NCBI GenBank assembly: GCA_028284955.1 | Contig: JANQQS010000025.1 | Location: forward strand, 1-39,238 | DNA length: 39,238 bases | Source of the DNA: Myxococcota bacterium | Lineage (GTDB): Bacteria > Myxococcota_A > Polyangia > Polyangiales > Houyiibacteriaceae | Direction of reading: 5' to 3' | Shown: one piece after another, positions 850 to 16,988 of the stretch | Layout: each line of letters starts with the position of its first letter | How positions within the stretch are numbered: position 1 is the stretch's first letter | Translations under genes and position numbers: made by a program | Notes under the pieces: generated by a model | Seen by the model: the letters and a program-made list of their open reading frames with translations, nothing else | Database searches by the model: none | What the model was told of the DNA's origin: nothing

Positions 850-1035
850 TCAAGCTCGCCCGTGCGGGTCGGTGAAATCGATGTCCGGGCCCACGGGAAC
901 GATGCCCGTGGGGTTGATGCTTGAATGGCTGCCGTAGTAGTGCTGCTTGATGTGGTCGATGTGGACCGTGTTCGCTATGCCGGGCACTTGGTAGAGTTCG
1001 CGCGTGTATCCCCATAGGTTGGGGTAATCGATCAG
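850..1035 (-). pseudogene. Detached 3'-end copy of the glutathionyl-hydroquinone reductase gene
   Basis: This 186-bp segment is co-linear, without gaps, with 2192-2377, the last 61 codons and stop of the intact reductase gene. I count 11 mismatches (about 94% identity). Most are silent; the four residue changes are Ile/Met, Gly/Ser, Asp/Glu and Ala/Val. Homology begins exactly at the stop codon and ends after GATCAG; no upstream part of the gene is present. It has no start of its own in the homologous part, so it is a relic. It lies on the far side of vapBC1 from the intact gene and in the same orientation. Confidence 0.9.
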
Positions 1036-1284: not shown

Positions 1285-1309
1285 CCATATAAAAGAGTAT
1301 GGCTAGTAT
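1281..1309 (+). promoter_or_regulatory. vapBC1 promoter, predicted leaderless
   Basis: TTGACC (1281-1286) and TAGTAT (1304-1309) are separated by exactly 17 bp. The predicted transcript start, about 7 nt after the -10, falls on ATG 1317, the likely vapB start. A short inverted repeat (CCATA 1285-1289, TATGG 1298-1302) lies between the boxes and could be an autoregulatory operator. Confidence 0.6.
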
Positions 1310-1316
1310 GTATCCC

Positions 1317-1562
1317 ATGAAAACAACGGTTGTGATCGCAGATCCCTTGCTGCGTCGAGCCAAGGAGCATGCACGTCGAGTCGGCCGACCCCTGCGCGCG
1401 TTGATTGAAGAGGGATTGCGGCGCGTGCTCGAAGCCGCCGAGCAAAATGCAACTTCGAGGTACCGTCTTGTGGACCGATCCGTTGGGCAGACCGGTGCAC
1501 CGAACCCACTCGAGCGCATGTCTTGGCAAGACCTGCGCGAAGAGATGTACGCCGGGCGCTAG
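1317..1562 (+). CDS. vapB: VapB-type antitoxin
   Basis: The 81-residue protein starts MKTTVVIADPLLRRAKEHAR, a typical VapB N-terminus with a ribbon-helix-helix DNA-binding fold (beta strand, then helices through about residue 42). The C-terminus (WQDLREEMYAGR) is the toxin-wrapping tail common in this family. It should neutralise the PIN RNase encoded next and repress its own promoter. An earlier in-frame ATG at 1299 lies inside the promoter spacer, so ATG 1317 is preferred. The toxin start follows the stop by 4 nt. The pair lies between two copies of a reductase 3' end. Confidence 0.85.
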   Translation: MKTTVVIADPLLRRAKEHARRVGRPLRALIEEGLRRVLEAAEQNATSRYRLVDRSVGQTGAPNPLERMSWQDLREEMYAGR

Positions 1563-1566
1563 AGAA

Positions 1567-2010
1567 GTGCTTGCCGTCGATACCAATGTGCTGGTCTATG
1601 CTCACCGACGCGAGGCATCGGAGCACGACGTTGCCAAAGGTCTTCTCGTTGAGCTCGCGGAAGACGACCTGCCTTGGGCAATTCCGTGGCCATGCATCTA
1701 TGAGTTCTTTAGCGTGGTTACCAACCCCAAAATTTGGAAAGACACCGCCAGCACACCTACGCAGGCGTGGGACCAGTTGCAAGCGTGGTTGGGCTCACCT
1801 TCTCTGCGTTTGCTTCACGAGACCGACGCGTTCACGCAACTTCTTGGGACTTTCATGACGATGCCCCGCGTCCGTGGTCCGATCATCCACGATGCCAGAA
1901 TCGCAGCCCTATGCTTGGTGCACGGCGTAGAAGCGCTGTTGAGCCGCGACCGAGACTTTTCGTTGTTCCCTGACCTGCGCCTGCGCAATCCATTTGAGAC
2001 GGAGCACTAG
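1567..2010 (+). CDS. vapC: VapC-type PIN-domain RNase toxin
   Basis: The 147-residue protein is a PIN-domain toxin, a metal-dependent RNase in this family. Acidic residues at the expected places are the Asp in VLAVDTN near the N-terminus, the Glu of YEFF, the Asp in IIHDARIAALC and the Asp pair in LSRDRDF. GTG 1567 is chosen because the PIN core begins directly there (VLAVDTN) and AGAGA precedes it. Longer forms would run through the vapB coding region in another frame. It follows vapB closely, as expected for translational coupling. The 181 nt between its stop and the reductase gene contain no convincing gene. Confidence 0.85.
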   Translation: MLAVDTNVLVYAHRREASEHDVAKGLLVELAEDDLPWAIPWPCIYEFFSVVTNPKIWKDTASTPTQAWDQLQAWLGSPSLRLLHETDAFTQLLGTFMTMPRVRGPIIHDARIAALCLVHGVEALLSRDRDFSLFPDLRLRNPFETEH

Positions 2011-2191: not shown

Positions 2192-2377
2192 TCAAACTCG
2201 CCCGTGAGGCTCGGTGAAATCAATATCCGGGCCCACGGGGACAATGCCCGTGGGGTTGATGCTCGAATGGCTGCTGTAGTAGTGCTGCTTGATGTGGTCC
2301 ATGTGGACCGTGTTCGCTATGCCGGGCACTTGGTAGAGTTCGCGCGTGTATCCCCATAGGTTGGGGTAGTCGATCAG
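2192..2377 (-). repeat. 186-bp direct repeat, intact copy within the reductase gene
   Basis: This is the second member of the repeat pair with 850-1035 (offset 1342 bp, no indels). It forms the last 61 codons and the stop of the intact gene. The two copies face the same way and bracket vapBC1, leaving about 1156 bp between them. Confidence 0.9.
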
Positions 2378-3163
2378 CCGCCGCCGATTGGTTTTGAAAT
2401 GACCCACGTACACCGGGTCGAACCGGACCAGCGTGGTGAAGAGGCGCCAGTCGGCTTCGGTGATTTGGTTGCCCACGAGGTATCGTGATTGGGAGAGCCG
2501 CGCTTCGAGCCAATCTAGCGTGTCGAATAGCGCTGTCACCGCTTCCTCGTAGGCTTCCTGCGTCGTCGCGAAGCCTGATTTGTAGACCCCATTGTTGAGC
2601 GTGTCGTAGACGCGCGCGTTGACCTCGTCGATTTCTGCGCGGAGGGCCTCAGGGTAGAAGTCTCCCGCGCGCGCGCCGATTCCGTCGAACGCCGAGTTCA
2701 GCATGCGAATGATCTCGGACGACTCGTTGCTTACGATTGTGCAGCGCTGCTTGTCCCAGAGCACGGGCACGGTGACGCGACCGGTGAACTTCGGTTCTGC
2801 CGCGGTGTAGACCTGATGGAGAAACTCCGCCTGGCCCACTGAATCTTCGATCACGCCGGGACCTTCATGAAACGTCCACCCCTGCGCGCCCATAAACGGG
2901 TGCACCACGGACAACGAAATCATGTCTTCGAGCCCTTTGAGCGCGCGAAAAATCAGCGTGCGGTGGGCCCAAGGACACGCGTAGGAGACGTAGAGATGAT
3001 AACGCCTCGCCTCCGCAGCGAACCCGCCCGAACCCGAGGGCCCCGCCGCGCCGTCCGGCGTGATCCAATGGCGAAACTTCGCATCCTGGCGCACAAACCG
3101 CCCGCCTGTCTCCCGAGTGGCGTACCACACGTCGTGCCACTGCCCATCCACCAGTTTGCCCAT
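2192..3163 (-). CDS. yqjG: Glutathionyl-hydroquinone reductase (glutathione S-transferase Xi class)
   Basis: The 323-residue length matches the YqjG/PcpF/ECM4 family, which uses a nucleophilic cysteine to strip glutathione from glutathionyl-hydroquinones in the cytosol. The catalytic motif YACPWAHR is present with Cys63, and the C-terminal GST helical region ends with the family-typical NPTGIVPVGPDIDF. ATG 3163 is preceded by AAGGTGAG. The last 61 codons also exist as a relic at 850-1035, on the other side of vapBC1. The 3' half of the intact gene may therefore be a hybrid; no frame damage is visible. Confidence 0.9.
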   Translation of the reverse strand: MGKLVDGQWHDVWYATRETGGRFVRQDAKFRHWITPDGAAGPSGSGGFAAEARRYHLYVSYACPWAHRTLIFRALKGLEDMISLSVVHPFMGAQGWTFHEGPGVIEDSVGQAEFLHQVYTAAEPKFTGRVTVPVLWDKQRCTIVSNESSEIIRMLNSAFDGIGARAGDFYPEALRAEIDEVNARVYDTLNNGVYKSGFATTQEAYEEAVTALFDTLDWLEARLSQSRYLVGNQITEADWRLFTTLVRFDPVYVGHFKTNRRRLIDYPNLWGYTRELYQVPGIANTVHMDHIKQHYYSSHSSINPTGIVPVGPDIDFTEPHGRV

Positions 3164-3342: not shown

Positions 3343-3576
3343 CTACGCGGGGGACACTTCCTCGCGATCTGTTCCCCAACATTCGAGCCACGCTTTGACC
3401 TGCTCGTGGGGCACGCAGTCTCCCGCGTCTGCGTTCGCGATGCCTTCTTCGATCATTCGAATTTGCCAGGCTTGATCCACGAGAAATCGGTCGAGCGCCC
3501 GCTCAAGCAACCACTGGCGATTGCGATCGGTCGACTTTGCGAGACGATCCAAAACATCTGCTTTCTCTCGGCTCAC
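3343..3576 (-). CDS. Orphan ribbon-helix-helix antitoxin-like protein (CopG/ParD type)
   Basis: The 77-residue protein has a hydrophilic helix pair (SREKADVLDRLAKSTDRNRQ, then WLLERALDRFL) and the tail VPHEQVKAWLECWGTDRE, as in CopG/ParD antitoxins paired with ParE/RelE toxins. It begins with GTG 3576 without a good ribosome site; the reading frame stays open upstream. Its first 74 nt overlap the end of the lipoprotein gene on the same strand in another frame. No ParE/RelE-like toxin is present downstream (3164-3342) or upstream, so it is an orphan or a remnant of a lost module. Confidence 0.65.
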   Translation of the reverse strand: MSREKADVLDRLAKSTDRNRQWLLERALDRFLVDQAWQIRMIEEGIANADAGDCVPHEQVKAWLECWGTDREEVSPA

Positions 3577-4125: not shown

Positions 4126-7100
4126 ATGGTACGATCCCCTATGCGAGGAGCATCGCGTGCGGGGCAGGCGGCACTGGGCAAGGCTCGACAGCTGCTCGCG
4201 GAAGTTCGCGCGCGTTCGATGTCCGAGTCGCGAACCATCGAGCTCAGCGCGGCGCTGGCGGCCGAGCTATTGGTGCTCAGTCGCGCGTTCGAAACGCGCG
4301 CGGAGCGCAGGGATCGCGCGTTTCTGGCTCGTCTGATGGATGACCCGGCGGGGCAGCGGTTTTCGACATTGCTGACCGATCGGGTGCCGCGGCTGAGTCA
4401 GCCGGTAGACGTCGTCCGCCAGACGCTGCGGGTGTTGGAACAGACTGGGGTTCCCGCATCGAGTTCGCCTTGGGATCGCGCTCGCTTGCATTCGCTTCAG
4501 CGACTGGGCCGGGCGCTCGAGCGATCGGCTCGTGTGGTCGAGGCCGCGGGCACTGCGGTGCGCCGAAAGATCGCCGACGAAGCCGCATCGTTCGTGGTGC
4601 TCGACGAAGGCGACGAAGTGTCGGCGCTGGCCTCGCGATGTCGCGCGGAGGGGTTGGACCTCAATGTGAACAAGCTCGGCGAAGCGGTGCTGGGCGAGCG
4701 CGAAGCCGAGCGTCATATCGCGGCGTACCAACGTTTGCTGGCCCTTCCCGAAGTGCGCCACATATCGATCAAGATTTCATCGATCTGTGCGCAGCTGAGC
4801 TTGGCGGCGTGGGATACATCGCTCGCTCGGATCGAAGACGCGCTCTGCGGGCTATATCGCGCGGCGCTTGATGCTCGCGTATCGACCGGCGCTCCGAAGA
4901 TCATCACCCTCGACATGGAAGCCTACGACGACCTGCGCCTGACCTATGAGGCGTTCGTTCGCACCCTGTCGCGACCCGAGTTTCGCGAGCTCTCGGCGGG
5001 CATTGTACTTCAGGCGTATGTGCCCGACGCACACGCGCTTCAAGAATCGCTGAACCGTTGGGCAATGCGCCGCGTGGCCGAAGGGGGTGCCCCGATTTTC
5101 TTGCGGTTGGTAAAAGGCGCGAATCTCGCTGCCGAGCGCGTGCATTCAAGCCATGCCGGATGGGCGCTGCCCACGTTTTCTTCCAAGGAAGAGGTCGACG
5201 CGAGTTTCAAAGCGATGGTCGACCGAGCCGTTCGTGCCGACGTGCTGCCGGCAGTGCGCGTAGGGATCGGCAGCCACAACCTGTTTGAGATTGCCTACGC
5301 GCTGGTACGTGCGGCCCAATTACCGGCAACCCATGTACCGGTGGTCTCGCGGCCAAGAGCCGCCGTGCGAGGAGGGCAGGGCGTACGGTTTGAAGTGTTG
5401 TTTGGCATGGCCACTCCACTGTCACGTGCGCTTCGCGCGCTCGGGCAAGACGTGCTCGTGTACTGCCCGGTCGTCGAGCCTGCTTCGCTGCATTCCGCGG
5501 TCGCCTATTTGGTTCGCCGCCTCGACGAGAATACCGCCGACGAGAACTTTCTTCGGCACATTTTCGGCATGAAAGGTCCATCTGGAGCATGGGCGGGACA
5601 AGTGGCGCGTTTTCGCACCAGCGCGGCACGGCGCAATGGCCTCGACGTTCGCCCTCGGCGAGCAGCACGGCGCGCGGCGCGGATCGCGCCGTCTAAGGAA
5701 GCAGCTCAGTTTTGCAATGCGCCCAACACGGACTTCGGTTCGGCGGAGAGACGCGCGGCCCTCGCGCAGCATCTTGAGCGTCAGCGTAGGCAGCCGATTC
5801 TTTCGCTGTCGTCCATGATCGGGGAGAGAGCCATGTCTTCGCGCGCGCAGGCGAGCGCCGACGTGTCTGGCTTCGATCCTTCGCGGCCCGAGCATGTGCC
5901 CTATCGGTATGCGCTCGCGACGCCAGCAGAAATACAACAGGCGCTGGCGACCGGGACTGATGCTCAGCAAGCGTGGTCGAAGAAACCTTTCGCCGAACGC
6001 GTCGACATCGTTCGTGCGGTCGCCAGCGTGCTTCGCCGAACGCGCGATTCGCTGATTGCCGCGATGGTGATGGATGGCGGAAAATCGGTGATCGAGGCCG
6101 ACGCTGAAGTCAGCGAAGCGATCGACTTTGCCGAGTACTACGCGCATACGTGGTCGAGCTGGGCATCGCATGCGCAACAGGCACCGTCTGCGCGTCTTGC
6201 ACCTCGTGGGCTTACCGTGGTGACCCCGCCGTGGAACTTTCCTTTGGCGATTCCCCTGGGGGGCGTTTTTGCCGCGCTCGTGGCGGGCAATGCGGTGATT
6301 CTCAAGCCAGCGCTAGAGACAGCCTACGTGGCGTGGCGCGCCGCGCAAGCGTGTTACGAGGCGGGGGTTCCGCAGAGCGCGCTGCAGCTGATTCTTTCGG
6401 GTGACGAAACCGCGACCGCGCTTATTACCGACGAGCGAGTGCACACCGTCGTGCTCACTGGGGGCACGAGCACAGCGCAGCTCTTTCGAGCGCTTCGCCC
6501 GAATCTGCACCTGCTTGGAGAAACAGGGGGGAAGAATGCGACCATCGTGAGTCGGTTTGCCGACCTCGACATCGCGGTCGAGTCGGTGGTTGATTCGGCG
6601 TTTCTCCACGCCGGGCAAAAATGTTCGGCGACGAGCTTGCTCATCGTGACCCCCGAGCTTGCGCGAGACGACCGATTCTTCGGCGCCCTGGTCGATGCTG
6701 CGCATACCATGCGAGTGGGCAGCGCGTGGTCCCCGGCCTCGCGGGTCACCCCGCTGATTCACCCGCCTCGAGGCGCATTGCTACGCGGGCTCACCGAGCT
6801 CGACCGAAGCGAACGCTGGCTGCTCGAACCAAGGCCATCTTCGGAAAATCCGCGGCTCTGGAGCCCGGGCATCAAAATCGGCGTCGCTCCAGGAAGCTTT
6901 TCTCATCAAACAGAATTCTTCGGCCCCGTGCTCAGCGTGATGGTGGCGCGCGATCTCGATGAGGCTGTCGACTGGGCCAATGCGACGCCGTACGGACTCA
7001 CCGCGGGCTTTCATTCGCTCGACGAATCTGAGCAGCGAACGTTTCGCGAGCGCATGAATGCCGGCAATCTTTACATCAATCGCCCCACCACGGGCGCCAT

Positions 7101-7872
7101 CGTGCAGCGACAACCCTTCGGTGGCCGCAAAGCGTCGTCATTTGGCCCCGGCGCGAAAGCCGGCGGCCCGAACTACGTGCTTCAGTTTTGCCGCATCGAA
7201 GACGGTGCTGCCGCGCACGACATCAAACCCCATCAAGCGTGTCCAGGCACTCCAGAATCCGCCGAAGTAGAGCCCGCCGAAATAGAGTCGGTCGAACTGT
7301 CGCGCAGCGCAGCAGAGGCGCTCAATGAACTGACCGCGCGTTTCCCCGACTGCGCAGTCGACCTTCGCCGCTGCGCAGCCGCCTACGCACGCGAAGCGCA
7401 AACCTACTTCGGGCAAACCTACGACCCAACCGCGCTACTCGGCCAAGACAATCTCTTCCGCTACCAGTTCGATGCGCCCGTGCTCGTGGCTGCATTCGAG
7501 CGCGCGACATCGCTCGACCTTGGTCGCGTGGCCCTGGCCCTCGTGACGCTCGACGTACCGTGGGAACTTTGCTTTGCCGGAAGTGCTCCACAACCGTTAG
7601 AGACACGAATGCGCGACATCTTCGGCGCCGACATCGTGCGCTACGAACCTTGGCCAAAACGAATCGAGCAGCGCTCATTTCACCGCATCCGCGCGCTCGG
7701 CGACGCCCCCTCCGACATGGCCCAGAGTGTCGTGCCGGACGTCACGTTCATCGACATGTCACCCGTGATCGCCCACCCGCGAATCGAACTACTCAAATAC
7801 GGCCGCGAGCAAACCATCAGCATCGACACCCATCGCTACGGCCACGTAGACGTTACCGATCTTCGCAAATAA
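4126..7872 (+). CDS. putA: Bifunctional proline dehydrogenase / L-glutamate-5-semialdehyde dehydrogenase PutA
   Basis: This 1248-residue enzyme oxidises proline to glutamate in two steps. The N-terminal PRODH barrel (about residues 60-490) carries FAD- and substrate-site signatures such as RLVKGANL and RRLDENTADENF. The aldehyde dehydrogenase domain (about 590-1030) has the catalytic pair Glu799 (ETGGKN) and Cys833 (AGQKCS). A further C-terminal domain (about 1060-1248), including the DNLFRYQ segment, is characteristic of long bacterial PutA proteins. ATG 4126 or ATG 4141 could be the start. No DNA-binding ribbon-helix-helix domain is evident at the N-terminus. A 19-bp part of its 3' end (7835-7853) recurs at 9118-9136, beyond the DUF4143 gene. 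Confidence 0.93.
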   Translation: MVRSPMRGASRAGQAALGKARQLLAEVRARSMSESRTIELSAALAAELLVLSRAFETRAERRDRAFLARLMDDPAGQRFSTLLTDRVPRLSQPVDVVRQTLRVLEQTGVPASSSPWDRARLHSLQRLGRALERSARVVEAAGTAVRRKIADEAASFVVLDEGDEVSALASRCRAEGLDLNVNKLGEAVLGEREAERHIAAYQRLLALPEVRHISIKISSICAQLSLAAWDTSLARIEDALCGLYRAALDARVSTGAPKIITLDMEAYDDLRLTYEAFVRTLSRPEFRELSAGIVLQAYVPDAHALQESLNRWAMRRVAEGGAPIFLRLVKGANLAAERVHSSHAGWALPTFSSKEEVDASFKAMVDRAVRADVLPAVRVGIGSHNLFEIAYALVRAAQLPATHVPVVSRPRAAVRGGQGVRFEVLFGMATPLSRALRALGQDVLVYCPVVEPASLHSAVAYLVRRLDENTADENFLRHIFGMKGPSGAWAGQVARFRTSAARRNGLDVRPRRAARRAARIAPSKEAAQFCNAPNTDFGSAERRAALAQHLERQRRQPILSLSSMIGERAMSSRAQASADVSGFDPSRPEHVPYRYALATPAEIQQALATGTDAQQAWSKKPFAERVDIVRAVASVLRRTRDSLIAAMVMDGGKSVIEADAEVSEAIDFAEYYAHTWSSWASHAQQAPSARLAPRGLTVVTPPWNFPLAIPLGGVFAALVAGNAVILKPALETAYVAWRAAQACYEAGVPQSALQLILSGDETATALITDERVHTVVLTGGTSTAQLFRALRPNLHLLGETGGKNATIVSRFADLDIAVESVVDSAFLHAGQKCSATSLLIVTPELARDDRFFGALVDAAHTMRVGSAWSPASRVTPLIHPPRGALLRGLTELDRSERWLLEPRPSSENPRLWSPGIKIGVAPGSFSHQTEFFGPVLSVMVARDLDEAVDWANATPYGLTAGFHSLDESEQRTFRERMNAGNLYINRPTTGAIVQRQPFGGRKASSFGPGAKAGGPNYVLQFCRIEDGAAAHDIKPHQACPGTPESAEVEPAEIESVELSRSAAEALNELTARFPDCAVDLRRCAAAYAREAQTYFGQTYDPTALLGQDNLFRYQFDAPVLVAAFERATSLDLGRVALALVTLDVPWELCFAGSAPQPLETRMRDIFGADIVRYEPWPKRIEQRSFHRIRALGDAPSDMAQSVVPDVTFIDMSPVIAHPRIELLKYGREQTISIDTHRYGHVDVTDLRK

Positions 7873-7890
7873 CAAAGTAAAATCATATAT

Positions 7891-7923
7891 TTGACATTTT
7901 ATAATATTGGTTTTATAAAATGT
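7891..7923 (+). promoter_or_regulatory. Promoter with a perfect 11-bp palindrome before the DUF4143 gene
   Basis: TTGACA (7891-7896), 17 bp, TATAAA (7914-7919) is close to consensus. A perfect inverted repeat, ACATTTTATAA (7894-7904) and TTATAAAATGT (7913-7923), covers both boxes with an 8-nt centre. It is strikingly AT-rich against the surrounding GC-rich DNA. The predicted transcript start falls at GTG 7926, so the message would have no leader. The layout suggests tight repression, possibly by the gene product or a nearby regulator. Confidence 0.75.
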
Positions 7924-7925
7924 AG

Positions 7926-9098
7926 GTGGAGCGAGTGCTCAAGGATCAGCTTGTCGTGCGGCTCAGCGAGCCAGACGCGCTGATTCAGGTTCTCTCTGGG
8001 CCGCGACAAGTTGGGAAGACGACTGCGTTGCGCGCCGCGCTCGCTCAGACGGGAGGCGTCTACGAAAGCGCAGACAGCCCGGTCCCGTTTTCGTTTCGCG
8101 ACGTGAGGGAGTGGTGGCAGAACGCGGAACGTCGCGGCGAGTCGATTTTGGCGGTCGACGAAATACAAAAAGTCGCCCAATGGACCGAGGCCATCAAACA
8201 ATTGTGGGATCGCGAGGGGCGTACGATGAGGCTGTGTCTGACCGGCTCTGCGGCGCTCACCGTACAGCAGGGACTCAGCGAATCGCTCGCCGGTCGATAC
8301 GAGCGAATACTCGCCGAGCACTGGCATCTCGCCGAAGCGGTCGAGGCGTTTGGCGCGACCACGCGGTCGTTCGTGGAATACGGCTGCTACCCGGGATCGA
8401 TGAGATTTCTCACAGAACCCGAGCGGTGGGCTGAATACGTCCGAGATGCCATCGTAGAGCCCGCGCTGGGGCGCGACCTGCTGCAGCTTCACCCGATCGA
8501 ACAGCCGGCTCTACTGCGGCAGTTGTTCGGCGTAGCGGTGGCGATGCCCGCGCAGATCGTCAGCTTTGAAAAGATTCAAGGGCAACTTCAAGGTCGCGGC
8601 ACGCTGCCGACCCTCGGGCGCTACCTTCGGCTCTTGGAGAGCGCATTCTTGGTGAGCGGCATCGACAAATATAGCGGCTCCGCGTTTCGGCTGAAACGAA
8701 GCAGCCCGAAACTCATCGTCCACGACAACGCGCTGCTGCGTGCATTCGAGCGCCCCGTCGACGCCCCGCTCGCCCCCGCGCGATTCGGCCACTACTTCGA
8801 AAACGCCGTCGGCGCGCGATTCATCGAAGCTGGATGGGCCACCCACTACTGGCGCGACCGCCAAGACGAAGTCGACTTCGTGGTCATCGGCCCGCGCGGC
8901 CAGCGTCTAGCCATCGAAGTCAAAAGCAGCCCCACGGACGAACCCAGCCTCTGCGGCCTTCGTCGCTTTTGCACCCGCCACCCAGAGTTTGAACCGTGCC
9001 TCGTATCCTGGGTCGACCAAGAGCTCCCCGGAGTGCGCACTCTACCGACCGCCGAAGTGCTTTCGCTCCATCGAGACGCGCGCACTTCGTTTGAGTAG
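7926..9098 (+). CDS. AAA+-like ATPase with DUF4143 C-terminal domain
   Basis: The 390-residue protein has a Walker A motif GPRQVGKT (residues 25-32) and Walker B ILAVDE (74-79). The DUF4143 region carries a PD-(D/E)XK nuclease-like signature: Glu292 (FEN), Asp317 (EVDF) and the EVK at 331-333. This family is widespread, scattered and of unknown role. GTG 7926 is placed where the promoter predicts the RNA start. The AT-rich palindromic promoter and its position directly behind putA resemble the neighbouring TA cassettes. Its last about 72 codons also exist as a frameshifted copy at 9811-10025. Confidence 0.85.
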   Translation: MERVLKDQLVVRLSEPDALIQVLSGPRQVGKTTALRAALAQTGGVYESADSPVPFSFRDVREWWQNAERRGESILAVDEIQKVAQWTEAIKQLWDREGRTMRLCLTGSAALTVQQGLSESLAGRYERILAEHWHLAEAVEAFGATTRSFVEYGCYPGSMRFLTEPERWAEYVRDAIVEPALGRDLLQLHPIEQPALLRQLFGVAVAMPAQIVSFEKIQGQLQGRGTLPTLGRYLRLLESAFLVSGIDKYSGSAFRLKRSSPKLIVHDNALLRAFERPVDAPLAPARFGHYFENAVGARFIEAGWATHYWRDRQDEVDFVVIGPRGQRLAIEVKSSPTDEPSLCGLRRFCTRHPEFEPCLVSWVDQELPGVRTLPTAEVLSLHRDARTSFE

Positions 9099-9117
9099 CC
9101 TCGGTTGCGCACGTGGA

Positions 9118-9136
9118 GCTACGGCCATGTAGACGT
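9118..9136 (+). repeat. 19-bp relic of the putA 3' end
   Basis: GCTACGGCCATGTAGACGT matches putA 7835-7853 (codons for RYGHVDV) with one mismatch in 19. It lies 19 nt after the DUF4143 stop and just before the vapBC2 promoter. A match this long over about 1.3 kb is very unlikely by chance, so it is probably the remainder of a longer putA 3'-end duplication. Confidence 0.65.
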
Positions 9137-9140
9137 CCGG

Positions 9141-9169
9141 TTGACATCATTGCCTACATTGATGACAAT
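9141..9169 (+). promoter_or_regulatory. vapBC2 promoter/operator, predicted leaderless
   Basis: A perfect TTGACA (9141-9146) is followed after 17 bp by GACAAT (9164-9169). An imperfect palindrome, TTGACATCA (9141-9149) and TGATGACAA (9160-9168), 8 of 9 matching with a 10-nt centre, overlaps both boxes and fits an antitoxin operator. The predicted RNA start coincides with ATG 9176. Confidence 0.65.
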
Positions 9170-9175
9170 GGAGGC

Positions 9176-9427
9176 ATGGCGGTGCTCAACATTCGCGACT
9201 TGCCGACCGAAGTGCACGCGCGCCTTCGGATTCGGGCTGCAGAAGCGGGTCGAAGTATGGAGGCTGAGGCGCGCGCGATTCTCGCCGAAGCATGTCTTGA
9301 AGACGCACGCGCGGTGCCTGCAACCGAGCTCCAAAAGTGGGTCGATCGTTTGTACGGTAGCGACAAACCCGAAGGCGTCGTGGATTCCCTGATCGAGGAA
9401 CGTCGCAAAGAGGCGCAACGCGAATGA
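9176..9427 (+). CDS. FitA-like ribbon-helix-helix antitoxin
   Basis: The 83-residue protein begins MAVLNIRDLPTEVHARLRIR and contains AAEAGRSMEAEARAIL, the hallmark N-terminal DNA-binding segment of FitA/StbC-type antitoxins. The C-terminal part is acidic/basic and should wrap the PIN toxin. Longer in-frame starts (for example ATG 9113) lie upstream of the promoter and are unlikely. Its stop overlaps the toxin start by 4 nt (ATGA), indicating translational coupling. Confidence 0.85.
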   Translation: MAVLNIRDLPTEVHARLRIRAAEAGRSMEAEARAILAEACLEDARAVPATELQKWVDRLYGSDKPEGVVDSLIEERRKEAQRE

Positions 9428-9804
9428 TCGCGCTCGATGCATCGGCGCTGCTGGCGTTCATGTTCCGAGAACCGGGGCACGAATACGTCGCCTCGTTGAT
9501 CGAGGATAGCTGTATGTCCTCGGTGAACATGGCGGAGGTTCTCGGGCGCTTTGAACGAGACGGGCATGCGCCGCGTCAGGTCGCGCAAGCGCTCCGATCG
9601 ACGTCGATTGAGTTCGTCGATTTCGATGAGAATCATGCCGAGATGGTGGCGACCTTGGTGCCTACCACGCAGCCTTATGGATTATCGCTTGCCGACCGTG
9701 CATGCCTCGCTCTCGCGGCGTCCCGCGGCATCCCCGCAATCACCGCGGACCGAGTCTGGGCCGACATCAAGCTCGGCGTCGACGTGCAATTGATCCGCGA
9801 CTAG
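9424..9804 (+). CDS. vapC: PIN-domain RNase toxin (VapC/FitB family)
   Basis: The 126-residue protein has the PIN acidic set: Asp5 (ALDASALL), the Glu of NMAEVLGR, the Asp in LADRACLALA and the Asp in ITADRVW. It starts with ATG overlapping the antitoxin stop. The partner type suggests a FitAB/VapBC pair. About 6 nt after its stop begins a decayed copy of the 3' end of the preceding DUF4143 gene, so the whole pair is bracketed by that repeat. Confidence 0.87.
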   Translation: MIALDASALLAFMFREPGHEYVASLIEDSCMSSVNMAEVLGRFERDGHAPRQVAQALRSTSIEFVDFDENHAEMVATLVPTTQPYGLSLADRACLALAASRGIPAITADRVWADIKLGVDVQLIRD

Positions 9805-9810
9805 CTATCG

Positions 9811-10025
9811 TCATCGGTCCGCGCGGCCAGCGTCTGGCCATCGAAGTCAAAACGCAACCCCACGGACGACCCCGACGCTCGCGGCCTTCGTCGCTTTTGC
9901 ACCCGCCACCCAGAGTTTGAACCGTGCCTCGTATCCTGGGTCGACCAAGAGCTCCCCGGAGTGCGCACCCTGCCAACCACTGAAGTGCTTTCGCTCCATC
10001 GAGACGCGCGCACTTCGATTGAGTA
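9811..10025 (+). pseudogene. Detached, frameshifted 3'-end copy of the DUF4143 gene
   Basis: This segment aligns with 8884-9097, the last about 72 codons of the ATPase gene, with about 16 substitutions and one inserted base (about 92% identity). The insertion lies after the codons for AIEVK and shifts the frame; the original TAG stop reads TAC here. Homology starts just after the vapC2 stop and ends inside the stop codon. Changes in the part after the insertion are largely silent relative to the original frame. The following 10026-10249 holds no recognisable gene. Confidence 0.88.
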
Positions 10026-10249
10026 CGTCACCCCACGTTCCGATTTCGAGATCCCATGCATGTGGACACCTGACCCACCTACTCCGGAAACTAAGAAATC
10101 CTTGGAGCGCGGATTCATCAACAACGTCAGCACGTTATGCGCTCATCGCACACGCGGTACGTTGTATGCATTACATATACCCAAAGCAGCCGCGAGAGGG
10201 GAACAGCCGTCTCCAGCTCGGCGTGTCGCAACAGAAGTGGGAGTTATCT

Positions 10250-11015: not shown

Positions 11016-11426
11016 ATGGTCGAGCGATGGGAGCAGCGATTTCAAAACTTTGAACGAGCTTTCTTGCTGCTCAAAGACGCTCTCGACGGCGACATTGATG
11101 ATTTGTCCGATCTCGAGAAGAAAGGCGTGATTCAGCGCTTCGAGTACACGTTCGAGCTCGCGTGGAAAACGCTCAAGGACTACCTTGTGCATCAAGGCAT
11201 TGTGTTCGATCAGGTGACGCCTCGCGCAGTCATCAAAGCAGCGTTCTCGGCGCAGGTCGTCATCGACGGGGCGCTCTGGGTGGATATGCTGGGGCGCCGA
11301 AACTTGATGAGCCGTGTGTACGATCAGCAGAAGTTTCATGAGACGATCGTGTTTATCTCGACGCGATACTTGGAAGGGTTCGACGAACTATGGCGGTGGC
11401 TCAAGGCAAAGATCGCCGAAGAGTAG
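11016..11426 (+). CDS. HEPN-like nucleotidyltransferase substrate-binding protein (HI0074 family)
   Basis: The 136-residue all-helical protein (NFERAFLLLKDAL, FEYTFELAWKTLKDYL, QQKFHETIVFI) is typical of HI0074-type partners of minimal nucleotidyltransferases, in which MNT and HEPN form a type VII-like TA pair. The classical HEPN R-x4-6-H RNase motif is not obvious, as is common in this subgroup. The start is fixed by the promoter position. The following MNT gene overlaps its end by 37 nt. Confidence 0.85.
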   Translation: MVERWEQRFQNFERAFLLLKDALDGDIDDLSDLEKKGVIQRFEYTFELAWKTLKDYLVHQGIVFDQVTPRAVIKAAFSAQVVIDGALWVDMLGRRNLMSRVYDQQKFHETIVFISTRYLEGFDELWRWLKAKIAEE

Positions 11427-11716
11427 ATGGTGGGCTTCGAGAGTCGGAGCGGCGCATGATTGCGTCGGTGTTTGCGCGACACCCCGAGGTGACGCGCGTC
11501 CGGTTGTTCGGGTCGCGGGCGATGGGCACAAACCGCCCCAACTCAGACATCGACATTGCGCTCTGGGGGCGCATTGATGTGTCGCTGCTGGGTCAGATCA
11601 AACTCGAACTCGATGAACTACCGCTTCCCTATACGTTCGATGTCGTGGTGTATTCGCAGATCAAGCACGACGCGCTCAAGCGCCATATCGACGACTACAG
11701 CCGCGACTTTCACTGA
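11390..11716 (+). CDS. Minimal nucleotidyltransferase (MNT) antitoxin-like protein
   Basis: The 108-residue protein has the nucleotidyltransferase signature VRLFGSRAMGTNRPNSDIDI, with the GS motif and the DxD metal pair. MNT proteins of such pairs AMPylate or otherwise modify the HEPN partner. ATG 11390 overlaps the partner gene; an internal ATG (11456) is also possible but would trim the first helix. Its TGA stop lies inside the first of two short copies of the end of the convergent gene at 11744. Confidence 0.85.
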   Translation: MAVAQGKDRRRVDGGLRESERRMIASVFARHPEVTRVRLFGSRAMGTNRPNSDIDIALWGRIDVSLLGQIKLELDELPLPYTFDVVVYSQIKHDALKRHIDDYSRDFH

Positions 11717-14942: not shown

Positions 14943-15518
14943 CTACTCGAGTTCGTCGAGCCCGAAGATGCCAGCCGAGCGGAAGAGCTGGTTGCCCGCG
15001 CTGCTGCCGACGGCGACTTCAAACGTGGATTGCATGCCGTCTCCATCGAGGTCGCCGATCGCTCGAAATGTGTAGACGTCGAGCATGTTGGGCGCAGACC
15101 CGCAGCCACCGCCTTCGGTGACGATGTGATACTCGTAGTAGACAGGGTCGCTGATGGTGAAGTTCAGCGCCACATAGCTCGGGCTTGCCGCCGCAAAATC
15201 CACGGAGTTCTTTTGCTCCGACGCGGTGTAGGTGGCGGCGGCCGCGTCGACCACGCAGTGGGTGGTCGCGGCGGCGGCGCCCAGGACCACGCCTTGTCCC
15301 CAGCGCTCCTGCTCGTAGTACGCGGCGGCGCCTGTGTAGAGCGCTTTGAGGTTGGCGCCAGCTTCGGAGGTTTTGGATCGCCTTACATACTGAACAAACC
15401 CGGGTATCGCGATCGCCGCGAGCACCCCAATGATCGCGACCACGATCATCAGCTCAATGAGGGTAAATGCGCTTGTTTTTCTGCGGTTAGCGGGCTTACG
15501 GCATCCGTGCGGCGTCAA
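14943..15518 (-). CDS. pilA: Type IV pilin-like protein
   Basis: The 191-residue prepilin is cut before Phe in [17 protein letters not shown], with the conserved Glu5 of mature pilin and the hydrophobic helix that packs in the fibre core. The C-terminal domain has Cys residues that could form the D-loop disulphide. TTG 15518 is chosen: TAGGAG lies 5 nt upstream and the leader is a normal length. The longer ATG at 15545 falls within the -10 box. It resembles the next pilin upstream closely in the first 60 mature residues, which points to duplication. Confidence 0.85.
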
Positions 15519-15543
15519 GACTGCTCCTACATCTGGTTCAAAC

Positions 15544-15574
15544 ATTATACTTCAAAAACTTAGAAATAGTGTAA
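15544..15574 (-). promoter_or_regulatory. Sigma-70-type promoter of the first pilin gene
   Basis: On the minus strand a perfect TATAAT (15549 to 15544) is preceded by TTACAC (15574 to 15569) with a long 19-bp spacer. The predicted start leaves a leader of about 19 nt before TTG 15518. No sigma-54 element is seen for this gene, unlike its neighbour. Confidence 0.45.
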
Positions 15575-15584
15575 CACAAGTATA

Positions 15585-15646
15585 AAAAAAGACGCCCTCG
15601 TTTCGAAGGTGGCACGCAGATGCCGCCTTCCGAGGGCGTCTTTTTT
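15585..15646. terminator. Strong bidirectional terminator between two pilin genes
   Basis: The outer stem pairs 15585-15600 with 15631-15646 (16 bp: A6 plus GACGCCCTCG and its complement ending in T6). An inner stem pairs GAAGGTGGCA (15605-15614) with TGCCGCCTTC (15621-15630). Poly-A/T flanks make it work in both directions. It should end the transcript of the upstream pilin gene on the minus strand and isolate the two pilin genes. Confidence 0.9.
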
Positions 15647-15651
15647 GTCGA

Positions 15652-16233
15652 CTATTCGAGTTCGGCGATGGTGAAGATACCAGGCGAACGGAAGAGGTCG
15701 TTGTCGGCGTTGGAGCCGACCGAGATCTCAAACGTGCTCAGCGCCGCGTCGCCGTCCAGGTTTCCTTGCGCCTGGAAGGTGTATACGCCGAGGTTGCCCG
15801 GCGCGCCGCCGCATCCGGCCGCCCCGTTGATGATGTGGTAGCGGTAGTAGAGCGGGTCGGCGGGGGTGAAGTTCAGCGACGCGAACTCACCGGTGCCGAG
15901 CGTGCTGAACGCCACCGAGCTCTTGTTGTTGCCCGGCGCGTTGCCGCTGGTCAGCGGGCCGACGGTGCAGTTCGTGGAGGCGGCGACCGCGGTGCCCGCC
16001 GCAACGGCGCCTCGGGGCCAGATTTCGCGCTGATAGTACGCCGCAGCTCCGGTGAACAACGACTTCAGGTTGGCGCCGGCCTCGGAGGTCTTCGAGCGTT
16101 TCACATAGTTGATGAATGCGGGAATCGCGATCGCGGCCAACACGCCGATAATCGCCACGACAATCATAAGCTCGATGAGCGTAAATCCTTCTTTCTTCCT
16201 GAGTACGTTGTGTTTCCTGAGTACGTTGTTCAT
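15652..16233 (-). CDS. pilA: Type IV pilin (major pilin candidate)
   Basis: The 193-residue prepilin has the leader [16 protein letters not shown], then [22 protein letters not shown] with the conserved Glu5. ATG 16233 follows GGAAGGTG. It has its own sigma-54 promoter and a strong terminator, as expected for an abundant, regulated pilin, and the PilR-type gene is nearby. The leader contains an in-frame 5-codon duplication (NVLRK repeated). The C-terminal globular part is rich in Ala, Gly and Asn, with conserved YYRYHI and FEISVGS segments also present in the neighbouring pilin. Confidence 0.88.
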
Positions 16234-16272
16234 CACACCTTCCCCTTGGCGGTTTAGAGATACCCTCGATTG

Positions 16273-16288
16273 TGCAGCATTTGTGCCA
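16273..16288 (-). promoter_or_regulatory. Sigma-54 promoter of the major pilin gene
   Basis: The minus strand reads TGGCACAAATGCTGCA, which has GG and GC elements separated by 10 nt, the canonical -24/-12 geometry. The RNA start expected about 12 nt beyond GC leaves a leader of about 28 nt. A PilR-type activator gene lies 750 bp upstream. Confidence 0.8.
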
Positions 16289-16320
16289 CAGTACAAAGAA
16301 TTTTCCAATGATGAAATCAT

Positions 16321-16417
16321 TGTCGATTCTCCGACATCGAATTCACTGAAACTAGAAATCGACCAGTCATACGACAAAAATCGTCAGTCGCGCACTTCGA
16401 TACTGACAAAAATTGTC
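16321..16417. promoter_or_regulatory. Candidate activator binding sites upstream of the pilin promoter
   Basis: Two perfect palindromes lie in the intergenic region: TGTCG-N6-CGACA (16321-16336) and GACAA-AAA-TTGTC (16405-16417). A half-matched relative (GACAAAAATCGTC) lies at about 16373-16385. All sit 35-145 bp upstream of the -24 element, a normal distance for an upstream activating sequence of a sigma-54 activator such as PilR. Confidence 0.55.
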
Positions 16418-16427
16418 GATTCGGCTG

Positions 16428-16988
16428 TTAGTCCCAGCCCTGCGTCGAGCTCGTCCAAATCGTATTGCTCGCGGAGTACGATTCAAACGTGAGTACCGCG
16501 CCTTGGCCATCGAGATTGCCGCGGGCTTGGCTAACGAACCAGAAGTCGCTGCCATCGTAGCCGTTCCCTGATGGACCGGGCGGCGTGGTGCCAGGAAAGC
16601 CGGCGATGGTGGCGTACTGAAATCGAATCGGACCATCCGGACGAACACCTAGCTGGTCCCATACCGGGGTCGCCGCGGGCCAGCTCTGCGCGTTCCGGCC
16701 GGTGCCGGCGAGCGCGTTTGGCGTAAACGCGGCAAACGCGGCGCCGCTGACGGCGGCATACTGACCAAACTCCGCGCGATAGGCCTCTTGCCGCTGCCGA
16801 ATTTCGCCGAGGAACGTCGTCGCTTCGCCGGTGCGCGCGATGTACACGTAGCGGGTAAACGCGGGAATCGCGATCGCTGCGAGTACCCCTACGATCACCA
16901 CCACGATCATGAGCTCAAGCAGGGTAAACCCCTCCTCGCGACGATGTGATGATGGGTCGACGGAGCGTTTGCGTTCCACAGTAAACAT
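16428..16988 (-). CDS. Type IV pilin-like protein (third pilin)
   Basis: The 186-residue prepilin has leader MFTVERKRSVDPSSHRREEG, cleaved before [22 protein letters not shown] with Glu5 conserved. The C-terminal domain differs clearly from the two downstream pilins (Trp/Gly/Pro-rich, TTPPGPSGNGYDGSDFW), so it may be a minor pilin. It lies 52 nt after pilR on the same strand and could be cotranscribed. Confidence 0.82.
   Translation of the reverse strand: MFTVERKRSVDPSSHRREEGFTLLELMIVVVIVGVLAAIAIPAFTRYVYIARTGEATTFLGEIRQRQEAYRAEFGQYAAVSGAAFAAFTPNALAGTGRNAQSWPAATPVWDQLGVRPDGPIRFQYATIAGFPGTTPPGPSGNGYDGSDFWFVSQARGNLDGQGAVLTFESYSASNTIWTSSTQGWD

Follow-up and report, generated by a model that had tools for sequence, protein, structure and literature searches.

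A possible relic of the putA 3' end behind a DUF4143 gene, set among clearer gene-end duplications in a Myxococcota genome

We analysed a window of 39,238 nucleotides from a Myxococcota bacterium (assembly GCA_028284955.1, contig JANQQS010000025.1), in which putA is followed on the same strand by a DUF4143 gene and a toxin–antitoxin pair, vapBC2 (Table 1). The true start of putA may lie downstream of position 4126, and the C-terminal HRYGH motif of its product is common to relatives. AT-rich leaders like the one separating putA from the DUF4143 gene also precede many of the remaining DUF4143 genes in this genome. The DUF4143 product matches the PADLOC profile PDLC04791 over nearly its whole length (residues 2–361 of 390, 5.9e-108), and this full-length profile match makes it a predicted member of PDC-S01, which is a candidate family only; a defence role here is putative. 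Apart from the DUF4143 gene, 7873–9117 contains no Pfam-supported gene, and the insert lacks the recombinase ORF that an integrase- or transposase-borne cassette would carry. Further left in the window, a second pair, vapBC1, lies behind a glutathione-transferase-like (GST-like) gene on the opposite strand; its antitoxin-like ORF (1299–1562) has no Pfam match. Two other features were observed nearby: a ribbon-helix-helix antitoxin-like ORF on the minus strand at 3343–3576, with no evident toxin partner, and a HEPN/MNT-type pair (NTase_sub_bind and Polbeta) at 11016–11716, close behind the vapBC2 region.

Table 1. Genes, repeats and candidate scars around putA and the GST-like gene (window positions)
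Feature	Position	Strand	Basis or remark
Relic of GST-like gene 3' end	850..1035	-	94%, ends exactly at stop codon
vapBC1, between GST copies	1299..2010	+	antitoxin-like ORF 1299-1562; PIN toxin 1567-2010, PIN 7.2e-9
GST-like gene; last 186 nt (2192-2377) duplicated	2192..3163	-	Pfam GST_C_2 9.1e-19
putA, proline dehydrogenase / aldehyde dehydrogenase fusion	4126..7872	+	Pfam Pro_dh 5.5e-51, Aldedh 2.4e-100
Source copy of 19-nt repeat	7835..7853	+	in HRYGHVDV codons of putA
AT-rich leader, GC 0.17, promoter-like; proposed left end of insert	7873..7925	+	begins directly at putA stop
DUF4143 / AAA_14 ATPase gene, 390 aa	7926..9098	+	Pfam DUF4143 1.5e-23, AAA_14 1.5e-19
Duplicated DUF4143 3' end, intact copy	8883..9097	+	last 215 nt of DUF4143
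Candidate putA 3'-end relic	9118..9136	+	18/19 match, difference synonymous in putA
Putative vapB2 leader: TTGACA and imperfect inverted repeat CATCATTG/CATTGATG	9140..9175	+	sequence, inference; directly behind candidate relic
vapB2, FitA-like ribbon-helix-helix antitoxin	9176..9427	+	Pfam 6.9e-17
vapC2, PIN-domain toxin	9424..9804	+	Pfam 1.8e-17
DUF4143 3'-end relic	9810..10025	+	93%, three indels, stop TAG lost (TAC)
Spot where simple layering predicts a putA relic	10027..10101	+	weak gapped alignment only

Near its end, putA contains the segment GCTACGGCCACGTAGACGT (38 to 20 nt from the ORF end), which recurs as GCTACGGCCATGTAGACGT 20 nt past the DUF4143 stop codon. The two copies are identical at 18 of 19 positions, and the sole difference is synonymous in putA (CAC/CAT). 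An earlier note on this DNA had reported both the recurrence with one mismatch and the location of the second copy just behind the DUF4143 stop, and we could reproduce both. The match is sharply bounded: no similarity remains in the flanks of the pair beyond the 19 nt, and on the right only CCG continues, after a 2-nt gap. On the putA side, it stops 19 nt before the stop codon. The 6.07-Mb genome contains no third copy of the 19-mer at up to three mismatches, and the reversed pattern matches one place.

Taken alone, the 19-mer repeat is not clearly beyond chance. The mean number of such pairs in third-order Markov windows of 39 kb was 0.72 without a distance limit and 0.12 for spacings below 2 kb, and some are expected genome-wide. 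A comparable-looking pair in the window itself (15439/16900) is part of a coding repeat inside a pilin-like family, whose repeated N-terminal methylation genes at 14943–16934 share segments of 72–90 nt. The position of the putA pair makes it more distinctive. In a 2.15-Mb sample of the same genome, with ORFs called by length and codon-position GC and gene borders consequently approximate, we took the last 60 nt of each gene and looked for a shared 19-mer, allowing one mismatch, in the 60 nt that follow either of the next two ORFs. One of 3,176 tests was positive, namely putA/DUF4143, and the reversed control gave none. Of 1,546 genes, 8 are flanked on either side, at a distance of up to 150 nt, by direct repeats that reach the score of the putA pair (controls: 0 reversed, 2 inverted). 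These comprise three dispersed repeats, two tandem paralogues, the dnaE relic described below, one other duplication and putA/DUF4143, so that six or seven of the eight are otherwise explained. In a further reversed control, 0 of 1,391 gene tails reached this score in the 3 kb downstream. The position-test figures overstate the surprise somewhat, because the 19-mer came from a reader's search of many places. A Fisher test on the DUF4143 genes was set aside, as its counts were entered by hand and include the putA/DUF4143 finding itself.

Clear relics of gene 3' ends are present in the same window and elsewhere in the genome. Copies of the DUF4143 3' end flank vapBC2 as a repeat of 217 alignment columns, and copies of the GST-like gene end flank vapBC1, with 9 of 11 differences at third codon positions. 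On contig C108, the 3' end of a gene for an 84-aa CPXCG protein is duplicated around an inserted deaminase-like gene. On C106 (L114, 1221-6864), the inserted gene encodes a 445-aa protein with a lipoprotein-like start and no Pfam match, and the dnaE 3' end recurs behind it as an old relic (80%). On C44:20001-36533 (L102, 1535-5244), an RCC1-repeat gene was inserted and the end of a pectate-lyase-like gene duplicated; the event also duplicated parts of a convergent gene, and all five coding differences are synonymous. The ends of the clear relics, relative to the stop codon, fall at -1, 0, +2, +6, +12 and +23 nt, five of the six lying within -1 to +12. In these other relics, homology thus ends near the stop codon, as additive insertion by homology-facilitated illegitimate recombination (HFIR) expects.

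Two loci bear directly on DUF4143 genes and on how relics erode. On C116:20001-40000 (L186, 2760-8688), a DUF4143 ORF stands between the gene for a 1,493-aa fibronectin-III (fn3) protein and pieces of that gene's tail farther downstream; here a DUF4143 gene was added independently behind a host gene whose 3' end is duplicated. Of the fn3 3' end, the relic retains two pieces (-176 to -109 and -34 to +2) and has lost the part between them by deletion; the DUF4143 gene there may be a pseudogene, its N-terminus lying in another frame. On C16 (L064, 315-3405), two DUF4143 genes, a FitA-like antitoxin gene and a truncated PIN toxin gene stand in a row. Behind the second DUF4143 gene and the vapB/vapC fragment, the tail of the first DUF4143 gene survives as an old relic (-92 to -32, 80%); like the putA 19-mer, this relic stops short of the stop codon. 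Together, C116 and C16 show that parts of relics are lost by deletion, leaving short islands, and that relics may miss the stop codon.

Such structures do not accompany every DUF4143 gene. The whole genome has 19 DUF4143 and about 30 PIN-domain matches, and flanking repeats are absent at most of the 16 DUF4143 genes examined in it. One gene, on C156:20001-40000 (L098, 14384-15871), lies between 29-nt perfect direct repeats outside a gene tail, with no further copies in the 2.15 Mb examined. Most of the apparent relics on L049, L097, L115, L126, L185 and L187 proved to be a dispersed intergenic repeat and were rejected; those on L115 and L187 look like one and the same sequence. This repeat, also seen at loci other than these, has a motif near CTCCCCCGCCAGGAGGCACGTGACCTGG and occurs in dozens of copies in the 2.15 Mb. 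Loci L063, L083, L090, L100, L101 and L111 were left out as tandem paralogues.

The codon positions of the differences indicate how the clear relics arose. In the five less-eroded relics, 30 of 39 substitutions are at third codon positions (P 3e-8 against 1/3; P 3e-5 against 0.44, a rough figure of our own for a pair in which one copy is constrained and the other drifts). In the two older relics, dnaE and C16, 6 of 24 differences are at third positions, as drift predicts. The less-eroded copies thus differ in the manner of alleles, and the older two do not. Judging from this pattern, the copies of the less-eroded relics probably diverged as functional alleles before one of them became a relic, and the third-position excess favours one-sided homologous recombination with a related strain's DNA over target duplication followed by drift. 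The putA pair, with its single synonymous difference, says nothing on this question.

Comparison with other genomes placed the putA locus in context; among the genomes searched, no other belongs to the same genus. The C-terminal 133 aa of PutA as query found no relative in 57 genomes, and a longer putA query finds relatives of the same build. None of these relatives has DUF4143 or vapBC behind putA as far as the loci reach (for L029 and L033, no further than the reading frame), which suggests that both are lineage-specific additions. In the nearest relative, L028, the C-terminal tail after the HRYGH motif is equal in length to that of the window putA, so the last putA codons look native rather than supplied by the insert. 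The plasmid collection gave no match. Among 20 DUF4143 loci from other genomes, no convincing flanking repeat was found at the gene-tail position; a few of their scores exceed their own reversed control, which itself reaches 46.

The order of events at the locus is less straightforward than its layout. The earlier note had remarked that the second copy, lying between DUF4143 and vapBC2, may complicate this order, and our analysis agrees. The duplication of the DUF4143 3' end around vapBC2 implies that whatever followed the DUF4143 gene before vapBC2 arrived now lies after 10026, and a putA relic is expected there. Strict scoring found nothing at 10027–10101, and a loose alignment reached the 1–4% background level; a putA relic behind the DUF4143 relic is accordingly not claimed. 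As a way out, and as speculation, the strain that donated vapBC2 might already have carried the DUF4143 gene with the putA relic behind it.

Several other explanations were weighed against a putA relic. By coincidence, a coding 19-mer of putA could recur at 18 of 19 positions in the vapB2 leader, the DUF4143 gene having arrived by another route. The Markov expectation, the end of the match before the putA stop, the bare flanks and the conflict with simple layering all agree with this account; against it stand the sole positive among the position-specific tests, the empty reversed control, the presence 700 nt away of a proven relic of this type, and the full pattern at another DUF4143 gene. We consider coincidence possible as a minority explanation. 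A shared functional site would instead make the sequence, with its short palindrome CTACG-GCCA-CGTAG, a putative binding site 40 nt upstream of vapB2, in keeping with the 5-nt inverted arms that the second copy retains as a G-T pair. No further genome copy accompanies the many PIN-domain matches, and the putA copy codes for a C-terminal motif that is largely conserved among relatives; this reading was rejected and is hardly credible.

Had the insert come in by a transposition-like or staggered-break event with target-site duplication, the copies would have been identical at first and then drifted. Long variable duplications of the order of 100 bp are known for restriction-modification units (PMC3874152), and the perfect, unique repeat around the C156 DUF4143 gene, outside a gene tail, would suit such an event. 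Flanking repeats of about this length or more are found at vapBC1 (186 nt) and vapBC2 (217 columns) and not at putA/DUF4143 (19 nt). The third-position excess argues against this account, as it means that both copies were still coding when much of their divergence accumulated; the other relics thus do not behave as copies identical at origin. The lack of a recombinase ORF and the native length of the putA end, which was therefore not brought by the insert, point the same way, and we regard target duplication as very unlikely for the putA locus. An assembly chimera was also considered. There is no N in the window or the event loci; indels, the lost stop codon and the internal deletion argue against it in the DUF4143, C116 and dnaE cases, and it may apply to the GST, C108 and C44 relics.

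That 9118–9136 is a true relic of the putA 3' end, and the scar of the DUF4143 addition, we hold to be somewhat probable. The earlier note had proposed that the DUF4143 gene was added behind putA by a route that duplicates gene 3' ends, and that the duplicated putA end is now almost erased. The route itself stands: that gene additions leaving a second host 3' end operate in this genome is well supported, and C116 supports the view that at least one other DUF4143 gene arrived by it. Its extension to putA, and the near-erasure with it, stand less firmly: the position is unique among the tail tests, but the match is only 19 nt long and ends 19 nt before the stop codon, where clear relics reach the stop or just past it (-1 to +23). 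We infer both that the 19-mer belongs to the class of the larger relics and how its origin is ordered relative to vapBC2.

If the putA relic is real, the addition may have proceeded as follows. The donor DNA, from a related strain, would have comprised a putA 3' end and, behind it, a DUF4143 gene under an AT-rich promoter of its own. This DNA would recombine homologously inside putA on one side and join illegitimately on the other. The incoming end would complete putA, and the DUF4143 gene would then sit behind it, the AT-rich leader starting at the putA stop. The resident putA end would be displaced downstream and worn by deletion to 19 nt. Genes for DprA, ComEC and Ku are present in the genome; they make DNA uptake and end joining possible and prove nothing. 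More broadly, this lineage might spread DUF4143 and toxin–antitoxin genes without a recombinase, each riding as a passenger on the 3' end of an ordinary gene: a gene end plus cassette would be traded one-sidedly between strains, with the host gene left whole, and each event would leave an allelic scar that dates and orders the additions. We offer this larger proposal tentatively and think it rather unlikely as it stands.

The movement of toxin–antitoxin and DUF4143 genes without a mobile element is poorly understood. Gene 3'-end scars combined with the codon-position test allow such additions to be recognised and classified simply, from any one genome, since the test separates traded alleles from target duplications. 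The putA scar is a marginal example here; the useful part is the set of relics around it.

Among known systems, long target duplications of variable length have been described for the insertion of restriction-modification units (PMC3874152; Nobusato et al. 2000). The vapBC1 and vapBC2 cases share with these units an insert between direct repeats of roughly 100 bp or more; in contrast, the cargo here is not restriction-modification, and the copies diverge like alleles rather than fresh duplications. In HFIR, one-sided homology with illegitimate joining on the far side adds foreign DNA by a homologous anchor (PMC3240628), which fits the allele-like divergence of the relics. HFIR is known from transformation and conjugation experiments, whereas here it would be read from scars, that of putA being too short to show it. 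In the type VI secretion (T6SS) clusters of Vibrio cholerae, new modules displace old effector 3' ends, which has been attributed to HFIR (Kirchberger 2017, PMC5361080). Entry behind a homologous anchor, the shift of the old 3' end downstream and layered arrays from repeated events are common to both settings. There, the modules are toxin effector–immunity modules at three clusters, whereas in the present genome the 3' end of the housekeeping gene stays complete, and what is gained behind it is a DUF4143 or toxin–antitoxin gene. By this analogy, the present case may work like the V. cholerae displacement.
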